DNA of 64,000 bases from contig CP065010.1 of the NCBI GenBank assembly GCA_016699775.1, positions 310,001-374,000 of the forward strand, read 5' to 3'. The DNA is from Candidatus Falkowbacteria bacterium. Its GTDB lineage: Bacteria > Patescibacteriota > Patescibacteriia > Patescibacteriales > Patescibacteriaceae. The position numbers and the translations under genes are program-made. Each line of letters starts with the position of its first letter. Within the stretch, counting starts at the first letter, position 1. Below, in pieces: positions 6,611-40,938 of the stretch. The notes under the pieces were generated by a model that saw only the letters and a list, made by a program, of their open reading frames with translations, was not told where the DNA came from and did not search any database.

Positions 6611-7822
6611 ATGCAACGTTTTATTCTCCACGTAGACATGAATTCTTACTTTGCTTCAGTCGAGCAACAAGCCAATCCGTTTTTGCGTGGAAAATCGGTT
6701 GGTGTTTGCGCCTATTTGTCACCGAACGGAGCTATTATCGCTTCTTCAGTTGAAGCTAAGGCTAAAGGTATTAGAACTGCTTTTCGGGTAGTTGATGCTA
6801 GAGTACTTGATCCTAATATTATTTTAGTAGAAAATGAACCAGCAAAATATCGAGCTGTAACAACAAGAATTTTTTCTATTTTAAGAGAGTACACAGATAA
6901 TTTTGAACCATATAGTATTGATGAGGCTTTTATTGACGTCACCAATGCAGTGAATAGTTTTTCCGCTGCTGACATGATTGGTGAAGAAATTAGGCAACGG
7001 ATTTTTTCTGAAGTCGGTGAGTGGTTAAAATGTTCAATTGGAATTTCTTGGACAAAATTTCTTGCCAAGTTTGCCGGTGATACTGCACCCAAAGGCGGAA
7101 CAAAAATTATTAGTCCAGATAATTTAGCTAAGAGTCTAGATTGCGGAGTCACAGAAGCCTGGGGGATTGCCAAAGGTTTAGAACGTCGTTTGCGAATGCT
7201 AGGGATCACCACCTTAAATGAGTTGCGGTTAGCTGATGCCATTAATTTAAAGAAAAATTTAGGCATGGTTGGTTATTATTTGTGGGCTAATGTTAATGGA
7301 CAAGAAATTTCGGTTGTTACTAAAGGTGCTACACCACCAAAATCAATTGGGCATTCCTATTGTCTACCAAAGCAAACAACTGATCATGAATATCTTGATA
7401 AAATATTATATAAATTATGTGAGAAAACAGGACGACGATTACGAGAAAAACAATTAGAGGCACAACGATTATCATTGCAGATTCTTCTGCGATCAGGTGA
7501 GTCTTTTCAGCAAAGTGAAACAGTGGCAGAGCGTTTGTTTACTACCGAAGAAATTTTTGCTGTTGCCATGAAACATTTTCAAGCCATGGAGCTATCAGCT
7601 TCAGTGCGGATGATAGCCATTTCGGTATCGAGATTGTCGCCTGTAACCGGCCAATTGTCGTTATTTACTACAAACACAAAAGGACGTTCGGTGACCGAAG
7701 CCCTTGATGTTATTAATGATAAGTATGGTGAGTATACAGTTGTTAAAGGGGCTATGTTTGGTACGAAAGAGTTAGCCCATGATCGAATTGGGTTTAGGAA
7801 GACGATTAGTTTTGAGGACTAG
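6611..7822 (+). CDS. dinB: DNA polymerase IV (Y family)
   Basis: Error-prone translesion polymerase. The N-terminus is RFILHVDMNSYFASVEQQ, with the first metal Asp. The second acidic pair is in YSIDEAFIDVT. The steric region PNGAIIASSVEAKAKGI follows the usual GVVxxAxYEAR position. Then come CSIGISWTKFLAKFAGDTAPKGG (palm), the helix-hairpin-helix TEAWGIAKGLERRLRMLGI, and the little-finger domain from about 240. The length of 403 is normal. There is no clear beta-clamp motif at the extreme end, though QLSLF near 360 (GQLSLF) is a good internal clamp-type motif. It lies beside lexA (divergent) and follows the DUF6504-like gene. Confidence 0.95.
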   Translation: MQRFILHVDMNSYFASVEQQANPFLRGKSVGVCAYLSPNGAIIASSVEAKAKGIRTAFRVVDARVLDPNIILVENEPAKYRAVTTRIFSILREYTDNFEPYSIDEAFIDVTNAVNSFSAADMIGEEIRQRIFSEVGEWLKCSIGISWTKFLAKFAGDTAPKGGTKIISPDNLAKSLDCGVTEAWGIAKGLERRLRMLGITTLNELRLADAINLKKNLGMVGYYLWANVNGQEISVVTKGATPPKSIGHSYCLPKQTTDHEYLDKILYKLCEKTGRRLREKQLEAQRLSLQILLRSGESFQQSETVAERLFTTEEIFAVAMKHFQAMELSASVRMIAISVSRLSPVTGQLSLFTTNTKGRSVTEALDVINDKYGEYTVVKGAMFGTKELAHDRIGFRKTISFED

Positions 7823-29937: not shown

Positions 29938-30625
29938 ATGAAACAAGCAAATCTAGTTTTATTACGACATGGACAAAGTGTCTGGAATAAGAAGAATGTT
30001 TTTACTGGTTGGGTAGATGTTGGTTTATCAAAAAAAGGCGAAGCAGAAGCTAAAGAGGCAGGGCGATTATTACATCGTCGTGGATATTCTTTTGATTTGG
30101 CCTACACCTCTGTTTTAAAGCGAGCCATCAAAACTTTATCTTTAACACTGAAAGCAGCCCATAGTCCAAAGATTCCAACCAAGCAGTCGTGGCGCCTTAA
30201 TGAACGTCATTATGGTGCTTTACAAGGAAAGAATAAACAAACCATTGAAAAGGAATTTGGCACCAAGCAATTTTACTCTGGCGTCGAAGTTACGCTGTTC
30301 GTCCGCCATTATTGTCTAGGCCAATGAAAGGTCAATGCACGCCAGCTCAGTGTGGTCTAAAGCTCAGTGAATTTCCACAAGCTGAGTCTTTGAAGGATAC
30401 ATATAAACGGGTAATGCCTTTTTGGAACCAAGAGATTTTCCAGCCCTTAAACGTGGTGAAAAAATTATTATATCGGCTCATGGTAACAGCTTACGTGCCT
30501 TAGTGAAGCATTTAGATAAGATTAGTGATACCAAGATTACTCAGCTTGAAATTCCTACTGGAAAACCACTTTGCTATCAGATCACAACTAAAGGCCTAGT
30601 GCAAAAGAAATGGTACTTAAAGTAA
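29938..30625 (+). pseudogene. gpmA: 2,3-BPG-dependent phosphoglycerate mutase with two frameshifts
   Basis: Interconverts 3- and 2-phosphoglycerate. Three frames join into one protein of about 229 residues. Frame 1 has LLRHGQSVWNKKNVFTGWVD (catalytic His), AYTSVLKRAI and LNERHYGALQGKNK. Frame 2 starts near 30275 (LWRRSYAVRPP) and runs to 30435. Frame 3 has [20 protein letters not shown] with the second His. Each break is fixed by one extra T, at the T runs 30271-30274 and 30436-30439. All catalytic residues are kept, so sequence error is more likely than loss. If the breaks are real the cell lacks this enzyme unless another mutase exists. Confidence 0.9.
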
Positions 30626-30702
30626 GGTGAAAATGATTAAAAAAATTTAGATAATTATCCATTTGCTTGGGTAATTATTTTTTGTTAGACTGGATGTAAT
30701 CC

Positions 30703-30728
30703 CTCCAAGATTATTAATTTACTTGGAG
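30703..30728 (+). promoter_or_regulatory. Start-site hairpin of coiled-coil copy 1
   Basis: CTCCAAG (30703-30709) pairs with CTTGGAG (30722-30728); loop of 12 bases. The 3' arm holds GGAG and ends one base before ATG 30730. The upstream block TTTTTGTTAGACTGG is shared with copy 2. See copies at 39599, 40060, 40407, 40739. Confidence 0.6.
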
Positions 30729-30729
30729 T

Positions 30730-31068
30730 ATGTATGCAACACAAGAAGATATGGACCTCCTTCTCGAATCAGTTAATAAAATGGCTACGTGTATAGAAGA
30801 ACTATCGGCACGAATGGATGATTTTTCTATACGTATGGATCAATTATCTGCCCGCCTGGAAGATCTAGCTTCGCGTATGGAAGAAGGATTTATACGAATA
30901 GATCAACGACTTAATTATCTTGAGACTAGACTTGAACGAATTGAAAAGAATATGGTTCATAAAGCCCAGTTTAATAGTCTATTAATTATTTTGGAAAAGA
31001 AGCAGGTTATTACCTCGTTTGAAAAGGCTCATATCCTTTTTCCTCCAATTGAAGACCCTTTGTCCTAG
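30730..31068 (+). CDS. Coiled-coil protein, copy 1 of a paralogous family
   Basis: A 112-residue protein. After MYATQEDMDLLLESVNKM comes a long coiled coil (residues 18-75) with repeats such as ARMDDFSIRMDQLSARLEDL. The C-terminal block MVHKAQFNSLLIILEKKQVI and FEKAHILF is shared with the copies at 39624, 40114 and 40434. No known domain is recognised; the C-terminal block could be a small helical binding unit. It lies 9 kb from the other four copies but keeps the same upstream hairpin. It is followed directly by the rpmB promoter. Confidence 0.8.
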   Translation: MYATQEDMDLLLESVNKMATCIEELSARMDDFSIRMDQLSARLEDLASRMEEGFIRIDQRLNYLETRLERIEKNMVHKAQFNSLLIILEKKQVITSFEKAHILFPPIEDPLS

Positions 31069-39598: not shown

Positions 39599-39622
39599 CT
39601 CCATAATTTTTAAATTTTGGAG
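39599..39622 (+). promoter_or_regulatory. Start-site hairpin of coiled-coil copy 2
   Basis: CTCCA (39599-39603) pairs with TGGAG (39618-39622), extended by A/T pairs; it ends one base before ATG 39624. TTTTTGTTAGACTGG at 39575-39589 is shared with copy 1 at the same distance. Confidence 0.6.
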
Positions 39623-39623
39623 T

Positions 39624-39944
39624 ATGAAATTTATCACTGAAGAAGAATTTATGGAATATATGGATGTACTATTAGAATCTTTTTCTAGATTAGAACAAAA
39701 GATAGATGATAGATTTGATAGGATTGATGAAAAATTTGCTTCTATTGATCAGAAGTTTGCAGTGATTGACAGAAATTTTGAAAAAGTCTTCCAAGAACTG
39801 AATTATCACAGCTCTCGGCTTAAGTATATAGAAGAGAATATGGTACATAAGTACCAATTCAACAGCCTGGTCGGTATTCTTGAGCGTAAGAAAGTTATCA
39901 CCAACTTTGATGCTAGTCATGTTTTGTATAGGCCTAGTGAGTGA
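39624..39944 (+). CDS. Coiled-coil protein, copy 2
   Basis: A 106-residue member of the same family: start MKFITEEEFMEYMDVLLESF, coiled coil with seven-residue repeats (FDRIDEKFASIDQKFAVIDR), then the conserved end MVHKYQFNSLVGILERKKVI and FDASHVLY. The repeat part differs in length from the other copies, while the two ends are conserved. This pattern fits a rod with two fixed contact surfaces. No known family is recognised. Confidence 0.8.
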   Translation: MKFITEEEFMEYMDVLLESFSRLEQKIDDRFDRIDEKFASIDQKFAVIDRNFEKVFQELNYHSSRLKYIEENMVHKYQFNSLVGILERKKVITNFDASHVLYRPSE

Positions 39945-39971
39945 AGTAAAGGTCATTGCGTTAATTACAAC

Positions 39972-40020
39972 CAGATCCCCGTTTGCACGGGGATGACAGA
40001 GGAAAGACCGGGATGACAGT
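39972..40020. repeat. REP-like palindrome, inverted, with extra half unit
   Basis: GATCCCCG (39974-39981) and CGGGGATGACA (39988-39998), then a second CGGGATGACA near 40009-40018. Confidence 0.75.
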
Positions 40021-40059
40021 GGAGAGTCAAAATGACATGCTAAAAAACTAATTTTACCC

Positions 40060-40085
40060 CTCCTTAACTATTAATTTTTAAGGAG
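40060..40085 (+). promoter_or_regulatory. Start-site hairpin of coiled-coil copy 3
   Basis: CTCCTTAA (40060-40067) pairs perfectly with TTAAGGAG (40078-40085). One base later the usual ATG is replaced by ATA (40087-40089). Confidence 0.6.
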
Positions 40086-40113
40086 TATAAAATTTATTAC
40101 TGAAGAAGAATTT

Positions 40114-40374
40114 ATGCAATACATGGACATATTAAAAGAAACATTTTCTAGAATAGAAAAAAGGATGGACGAAAGATTTGATAGGGTTGAAGAGCAGTTT
40201 GCTGAATTAAGAGATGAAATCAAGTATTTAAACACAAGAGTTGGTAGAATTGAGAAATATATGGTTCACAAGTCTCAGTTCAATAGCCTGCTGATTATTT
40301 TAGAGAAAAAAGAAGTAATCTCATCTTTTGATAAAAGTCATGTTCTGTTTAAGAATACTGATAGATTAGATTAA
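40114..40374 (+). CDS. Coiled-coil protein, copy 3, start codon changed
   Basis: Same family. From ATG 40114 it has 86 residues (MQYMDILKETFSRIEKRMDERFDRVEEQ, then the C-terminal MVHKSQFNSLLIILEKKEVI and FDKSHVLF). The frame is open further upstream, and residues matching copies 2 and 4 (KFITEEEF) are encoded before this ATG, behind an ATA at 40087 where the others have ATG. The gene is thus either starting at ATA, restarting at 40114, or silenced. Confidence 0.7.
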   Translation: MQYMDILKETFSRIEKRMDERFDRVEEQFAELRDEIKYLNTRVGRIEKYMVHKSQFNSLLIILEKKEVISSFDKSHVLFKNTDRLD

Positions 40375-40406
40375 TTTTTAGTTACAGTTTTTGCGTGCAA
40401 ATAACC

Positions 40407-40432
40407 CTCCTTAACTATTAATTTTTAAGGAG
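40407..40432 (+). promoter_or_regulatory. Start-site hairpin of coiled-coil copy 4
   Basis: CTCCTTAA (40407-40414) with TTAAGGAG (40425-40432), identical to copy 3; ATG follows at 40434. Confidence 0.65.
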
Positions 40433-40433
40433 T

Positions 40434-40712
40434 ATGAAATATATTACTGAAAAAGAATTTATGCAATATATGGACATATTAAAAGAAACATTTTCTAGAT
40501 TAGAACAAAGGATGGACGAAAGATTTGATAAAGTCGATGAAAGACTTGATAAGGTAGACGAACGCCTTAATTATCATCAAACCTGGCTTGAACGGATAGA
40601 AGGTAATATGGCGACTAAGGGTCAGTTAAACAGCCTCGCTATTATTTTAAAAGATAAAGAAGTGATTAATTCTTATGAGGTTGCTCATATTAAACAAACT
40701 GATTCAGTGTAG
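40434..40712 (+). CDS. Coiled-coil protein, copy 4
   Basis: A 92-residue member: MKYITEKEFMQYMDILKETF, near identical to copy 3 at the N-terminus, then heptads (RFDKVDERLDKVDERL) and a diverged C-terminal block (MATKGQLNSLAIILKDKEVI, YEVAHIKQ). The N-terminal identity with copy 3 and the identical hairpin point to recent duplication. Function unknown. Confidence 0.8.
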   Translation: MKYITEKEFMQYMDILKETFSRLEQRMDERFDKVDERLDKVDERLNYHQTWLERIEGNMATKGQLNSLAIILKDKEVINSYEVAHIKQTDSV

Positions 40713-40738
40713 TATTATATACTTGTAGTACAGCAAAT

Positions 40739-40767
40739 ATCCCTCCTTTTATTATTAAAAAAGGGAT
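40739..40767 (+). promoter_or_regulatory. Start-site hairpin of coiled-coil copy 5
   Basis: ATCCCT (40739-40744) pairs with AGGGAT (40762-40767), plus TTTT/AAAA inside. The sequence differs from the other copies on both arms but the pairing is kept; ATG follows directly at 40768. Confidence 0.6.
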
Positions 40768-40938
40768 ATGATATCAGAAAAAGAGTATTTAGAGTTATTG
40801 ATAATTATTACTGAGTCTTTTGATCACCTGGAGAGACGGATTGATGATCATTTCGCGTCATTGGAAACACGGATGCGATGTAATGAAATATGGATGAAAC
40901 GCATTGCCGAGATTATAGCTGAAAAAGACACACAATAA
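40768..40938 (+). CDS. Short coiled-coil protein, copy 5
   Basis: A 56-residue member: MISEKEYLELLIIITESFDHL, RRIDDHFASLETRM and a short end (WMKRIAEIIAEKDTQ). It lacks the conserved C-terminal FNSL...ILEKK block of the others, so it is either a truncated copy or a shorter form. The match to the family at the N-terminus and the preserved hairpin argue that it is still expressed. Confidence 0.65.
   Translation: MISEKEYLELLIIITESFDHLERRIDDHFASLETRMRCNEIWMKRIAEIIAEKDTQ

Follow-up and report, generated by a model that had tools for sequence, protein, structure and literature searches.

Repressor hairpins that sequester the Shine-Dalgarno (SD) sequence carry a 5' arm that complements a purine-rich 3' arm just before the AUG, and bacterial messages can also carry stabilising stem-loops at their 5' ends. 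In the cyanobacterial hsp17 RNA thermometer, as set out in the part of PMC4477652 drawn on here, the ribosome-binding site and the start codon are held in separate stems. For starts that lack an SD sequence, the corresponding part of PMC3121790 describes no conserved structural motif and a need for unfolded AUGs, and structure at the start codon is reported there to lower the expression of SD-less reporters in Escherichia coli.

The window (the whole 64,000-nucleotide stretch of DNA that was analysed) contains five genes for small coiled-coil proteins, each directly preceded by a hairpin. The features are as follows, all on the plus strand:

30683..30691, +: extended minus-10-like box TGTTAGACT of copy 1, predicted promoter, 38 nt to the ATG
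30703..30728, +: hairpin 1, stem CTCCAAG/CTTGGAG
30730..31068, +: coiled-coil protein copy 1, 112 aa
39579..39587, +: extended minus-10-like box TGTTAGACT of copy 2, predicted promoter, 36 nt to the ATG
39599..39622, +: hairpin 2, stem CTCCA/TGGAG
39624..39944, +: coiled-coil protein copy 2, 106 aa
40060..40085, +: hairpin 3, stem CTCCTTAA/TTAAGGAG
40087..40374, +: coiled-coil protein copy 3; the codon after the hairpin is ATA and the first ATG is at 40114
40407..40432, +: hairpin 4, same sequence as hairpin 3
40434..40712, +: coiled-coil protein copy 4, 92 aa
40739..40767, +: hairpin 5, stem ATCCCT/AGGGAT plus TTTTA/TAAAA
40768..40938, +: coiled-coil protein copy 5, 56 aa, without the C-terminal block

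All five hairpins are present where the initial annotation had put them (30703, 39599, 40060, 40407 and 40739). It had the 3' arm ending one or two bases before the start codon; the gap measured 1 nt in copies 1-4 and 0 nt in copy 5, in which pairing is able to run on into the AT of the ATG. All five hairpins do abut start codons as claimed, except that the codon of copy 3 reads ATA. The sequence upstream of the identical hairpins 3 and 4 has diverged. The pattern CCCTCC..GGAG matched the window six times against 0.31 expected, four of the six matches being copies 1-4, and a search of the window with Rfam 15 left the hairpins unmatched, only two tRNAs scoring above the gathering threshold. Elsewhere in the window, a gene that by eye resembles phosphoglycerate mutase (29938-30627) is split across two frames (ORFs 29938-30327 and 30422-30625), and positions 39970-40035 hold GGGATGACA-type repeats, which we take to resemble dispersed repeats in other genomes.

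The family products are small coiled-coil proteins made up of an N-terminal block and a heptad rod, both variable, and a C-terminal block. The conserved end, NMxxKxQFNSL..IL..K.VI..F...H, is present in four of the five window copies, as originally described, and missing from copy 5, whereas the N-terminal block that had been called shared differs in copy 1. The 57 family proteins that were aligned are acidic without exception (pI 4.8-6.8, median charge -4.4). The AlphaFold model of copy 4 shows a long helix accompanied by two short helices (mean pLDDT 90.3, pTM 0.46), and a fold search of the PDB with this model gave no good match (best E 1.8); the sequence matches of the family in PDB and PHROGs look like coiled-coil noise and were rejected. 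The Mycoplasma DUF16 family (PF01519) likewise comprises small multicopy coiled-coil proteins, and its profile matches four window copies weakly, at 13-21 bits, below the cut-off of 40 bits. The family proteins (P0001-P0061, e.g. P0013 and P0014) look mosaic, with the same N-terminal blocks, rods and C-terminal ends variously combined.

Protein searches returned 16 matches in one case and 245 in another, and approximately 60 proteins (P0001-P0061 less P0059) were assigned to the family by eye among the 120 matches listed of the 245. Seven genome members were found outside the window in three genomes, G413 (three), G388 (three) and G432 (one), all of which fall within one order (111 genomes). 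This order is in the class of G002, the Magasanikbacteria genome that holds locus L002, and its lineage is therefore Patescibacteria; the window is grouped with the order by gene similarity only. The analysis at the DNA level covers 12 members in four genomes, the metagenome members being known as protein only. Two pairs of loci are syntenic: the genes that flank G413b also flank G388c (67-86% identity), and four neighbours of copy 1 recur around G413a (48-70%), the window having two extra intervening genes. A 379-genome sample of the phylum yielded G413 and two distant homologues, G062 and G224, which were left out of the member count; the closer of the two, G062, belongs to another order and has no family-type hairpin, its leader folding weakly through A-T pairs that include the ATG. 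No relatives were found in viral contigs, nor did phage records, which were searched with copy 4 only, contain any. The relatives found first (L001-L004) turned out to be another coiled-coil family, with no CCTCC..GGAG hairpin upstream of the gene. The coding part of G413c (L067, G413 C4:565600-566700) has an in-frame TAA, and its hairpin is kept. The region between G413a and a 2007-aa RHS/SpvB-like gene (L087, G413 C4, about 7133-7500) holds a leader whose long complementary arms are nested and which by eye resembles a structured RNA.

The hairpin was found in all seven genome relatives with different arms, including CTCTTTTAT/ATAAAAGAG in G413b, CTCTC/GAGAG in G388a and G388c, and ACCCT/GGGGT in G432; the hairpins of G413a and G413c are longer (60 and 43 nt, with gaps of 5 and 4 nt). 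The 3' arm has at least four purines of five in every one of the 12 members, which is itself a test condition, and the base of the stem has 4-7 G+C of 10, compared with 0-39% in the remainder. As controls we used 539 other genes of at least 100 aa from the window and from stretches of G413, G388 and G432, taken as longest-ATG ORFs, so that some of their starts are wrong. A relaxed test detected a hairpin in 12 of 12 members and in 14 of the 539 controls. For compact hairpins (35 nt or less, gap 0-2), the best hairpin of 10 of the 12 members qualified, whereas a compact hairpin of any rank was present in 1 of 539 controls (Fisher P about 1e-18, under criteria fixed after the family was seen). 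Sister-type coiled-coil genes, which end in [LFM]xPF, gave one hairpin in nine by the relaxed test, that of L116 (33 nt, gap 5, doubtful start). The sole compact hairpin outside the family, ACCCTCC..GGAGGGT with a gap of 0, heads an RHS-repeat fragment gene immediately after member G388b (L103, G388 C35:1-20000, minus strand, about 1869 to 799), the product of which ends in what by eye resembles a CHAP-type domain.

A 0.63 Mb scan for a short pyrimidine/purine hairpin and a TAnnnT box before ATG matched 21 of 18,149 ATGs, a rate not above that of other triplets; the signal was confined to gene starts, and the matches heading ORFs of at least 70 aa numbered seven, five of them family members and one the RHS-fragment gene. 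In 86 genomes of the Magasanikbacteria order, CCCTCC..GGAGTATG had one match, by eye within a coding stretch, against three for the backwards control. Across the family's order (111 genomes), CTCC..GGAGWATGA occurred at 34 places in 25 genomes (backwards control 16) and CTCT..AGAGWATGA at 42 places in 36 genomes (backwards control about 37). Inspection covered 60 of these loci, with 16 listed places outside it; two (G413b and G388c) were clear gene starts, one (L127, 295-aa ORF, weak stem) was a possible start, and the remainder of the 60 were tiny or internal ORFs.

Folded singly, the leaders of copies 1-5 gave z values of -1.16, -0.41, -2.53, -2.08 and -2.93, respectively; these values are not significant for copies 1 and 2 and moderate for copies 3-5. 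In a separate comparison with 200 dinucleotide shuffles each, 20, 31, 0, 10 and 3 shuffles reached copies 1-5. The combined folding P for all 12 members was about 4e-9, which is too generous because the members are related. Alignment of the leaders by sequence placed the stems out of register. In a swap test, for which arms were not hand-picked, the last 10 nt of each member were paired with its own or with permuted upstream regions; 11 members were included, copy 3 being omitted because it is near-identical to copy 4. Own partners summed to -86.8 against a permuted mean of -61.5 (sd 5.1), and 1 of 20,000 permutations was as good, a figure that became 0 of 20,000 for the nine members that remain without the two long G413 hairpins. 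The own partner ranked best in its row for 5 of the 11 members and worst for G413c, the 5' arm of which falls outside the searched region; the region of G413a was set by hand. When arms were chosen by hand, two-sided changes were seen in all five pairs and the covariation score was 1.03 versus 0.40 in shuffles (0 of 500 as high), while shuffles were as high in 53 of 500 cases for pairs with two-sided changes and in 395 of 500 for pair types; such hand-chosen counts are biased upwards, and two of the five measures were no better than shuffles. Furthermore, the stems differ at the syntenic loci G413b/G388c and copy 1/G413a. The swap test and these loci uphold the original observation that both arms change while pairing is kept; together with the family specificity, they support a shared cis-acting hairpin under selection.

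The setting of this hairpin was assessed from SD cores and promoter-like boxes. An SD core situated 22 to 4 nt upstream of the start was found in 1 of 49 genes of the window (1.2 in shuffles), 26 of 322 in G413 (18.2), 15 of 121 in G388 (10.7) and 0 of 9 in G432 (0.7). Of the 41 core occurrences in G413, 16 are at 6-7 nt from the ATG and none at 1 nt. The 16S tails of G413 and G388 retain CACCTCCTTTCT, so that a weak SD system probably exists. Minus-10-like boxes cluster 5-9 nt upstream of the ATG relative to reversed sequence (8 versus 0 for 54 window genes, 19 versus 5 for 132 genes of G388, 32 versus 16 for 344 genes of G413), and this pile-up, together with the scarcity of SD cores, suggests that many messages of the lineage are leaderless. 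In family members the box lies 33-38 nt from the ATG in 7 of 12 cases, at 58 nt in G413c and, by eye, still further upstream in G413a; no clear box was found for copies 3, 4 and 5. Since the box is 33-38 nt away in those seven, the hairpin is probably almost the entire leader, and family transcripts are predicted not to be leaderless.

We favour, at a probability of roughly 45%, a translational gate in which a 5'-terminal hairpin with a basal clamp bars the start codon from the ribosome until it is opened. Each gene would be driven by its own predicted promoter, the hairpin would begin at most a few nucleotides from the predicted 5' end of the transcript and make up nearly all of the 5' leader, and the G+C-richer base of the stem would sit against the AUG. 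In genomes that rely little on SD pairing and in which many messages seem to be leaderless, one would expect unfolded start codons, and a duplex just before the AUG would deny that codon access to the ribosomal P site for as long as the stem base stays closed. Because the bases before the AUG must be single-stranded in an initiating ribosome, a closed stem should block initiation, in keeping with the reporter result of PMC3121790, and some opener would be called for, whether an RNA chaperone, a helicase, another protein or an RNA. Speaking for the gate are the presence of the hairpin in all 12 members, pairing that follows the individual member, stems that differ at syntenic loci, the G+C-richer stem base, the rarity of the hairpin before sister-type genes and the displaced minus-10 box of seven members. 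Several results argue against it, namely that the folding of copies 1 and 2 does not surpass that of shuffles, that a clear minus-10 box stands at the expected place in only 7 of 12 members, that the gap widens to 5 nt in G413a and 4 nt in G413c, and that the distant homologue G062 is without a family-type hairpin. A wider proposal, which we put forward tentatively and judge to be on the unlikely side, is that the hairpin represents a new kind of element, a 5'-terminal 'lid' between the promoter and the AUG of otherwise leaderless-type messages, which, by way of one shared trans-acting opener, would gate SD-independent initiation in a multigene family and in an RHS-fragment gene next to a member.

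The hairpin may also be a protector of the 5' end, which fits almost as well as the gate. As the main rival, this reading holds that short-leader messages owe protection from 5' attack by RNase J or a pyrophosphohydrolase to their terminal hairpin, which touches the AUG only because the leaders are so short. Box distances and hairpin lengths predict that the hairpin lies 7-11 nt after the minus-10 box, a G+C-richer stem base would suit such a cap, and RNase J is listed among the factors retained in Patescibacteria in the part of PMC12641178 used here. We nevertheless consider a cap unlikely, as it leaves unexplained both why 10 of 12 hairpins end 0-2 nt from the AUG, where initiation would suffer, and why the 5' arms are constantly pyrimidine and the 3' arms purine.

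Improbable to a greater degree is that the purine-rich 3' arm is an SD sequence masked by an anti-SD-like 5' arm. The retained 16S tails and the purine content of all 12 3' arms (the test condition noted above) would agree with it, and SD hiding is possible in G413a and G413c, where GGAG and GAGG lie 5 and 4 nt from the ATG. For the family at large, the initial annotation's view of the GGAG as an ordinary hidden SD mostly fails: cores are at the level of chance in the window and exceed it only slightly in two relatives, GGAG is missing from the hairpins of several members, and the gap of 0-2 nt in 10 of 12 members leaves no SD at working distance there, a GGAG at 1 nt being badly placed because G413 cores peak at 6-7 nt. 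Its suggestion of an anti-SD decoy fares no better, given that CCTCC is absent from the 5' arm of some members.

That warmth melts the hairpin and frees the start codon, as the same annotation had considered, is very improbable. The hairpin pairs the initiation region in 12 of 12 members, as in an RNA thermometer, and the upper stem is AT-rich; between 5 and 37 C, however, the predicted unpaired fraction rises appreciably in G413c (0.22 to 0.53) and G388b (0.29 to 0.46), as partial exceptions, but by 0.10 or less in the other ten members (copy 4: 0.01 to 0.04), and no clear thermometer emerges from predicted melting. Slightly less credible again is a special case of the gate in which each hairpin is kept closed through binding of the coiled-coil protein encoded behind it: the link of the hairpin to one protein family, and to a sole RHS-fragment gene right after a member, would be consistent with autoregulation, but the 57 acidic proteins and the variation of stems and loops between members speak against it. 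We give equally little credence to a DNA-level inverted repeat marking a recombination or conversion boundary rather than an RNA signal, for although copy 3/copy 4 similarity starts at the hairpin foot, the proteins look mosaic and a hairpin heads the RHS fragment in G388, its place and orientation are fixed between minus-10 box and start codon and the syntenic loci are old.

The excerpts of the literature on translation initiation, Shine-Dalgarno use, leaderless messages and coiled-coil expansion in Patescibacteria/CPR that were consulted describe no such element. If the gate is true, these genes would offer a clean natural case for start-codon finding without SD pairing, with a conserved duplex that touches the AUG, and a first point of entry to the gene regulation of an uncultured lineage. 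Like the 5'-terminal stabilising stem-loops, the family hairpin is placed at or near the predicted 5' end; unlike them, it additionally abuts the start codon. With SD-sequestering translational repressor hairpins it shares a 5' arm that pairs a purine-rich 3' arm before the AUG, but the 3' arm is too near the AUG in 10 of 12 members, and these genomes scarcely use SD cores. In the hsp17 thermometer, according to the same part of PMC4477652, one small start-codon hairpin is the whole regulatory element, as it would be here; the family hairpins differ in that they contain no ordinary ribosome-binding site and are predicted to melt little below 37 C.
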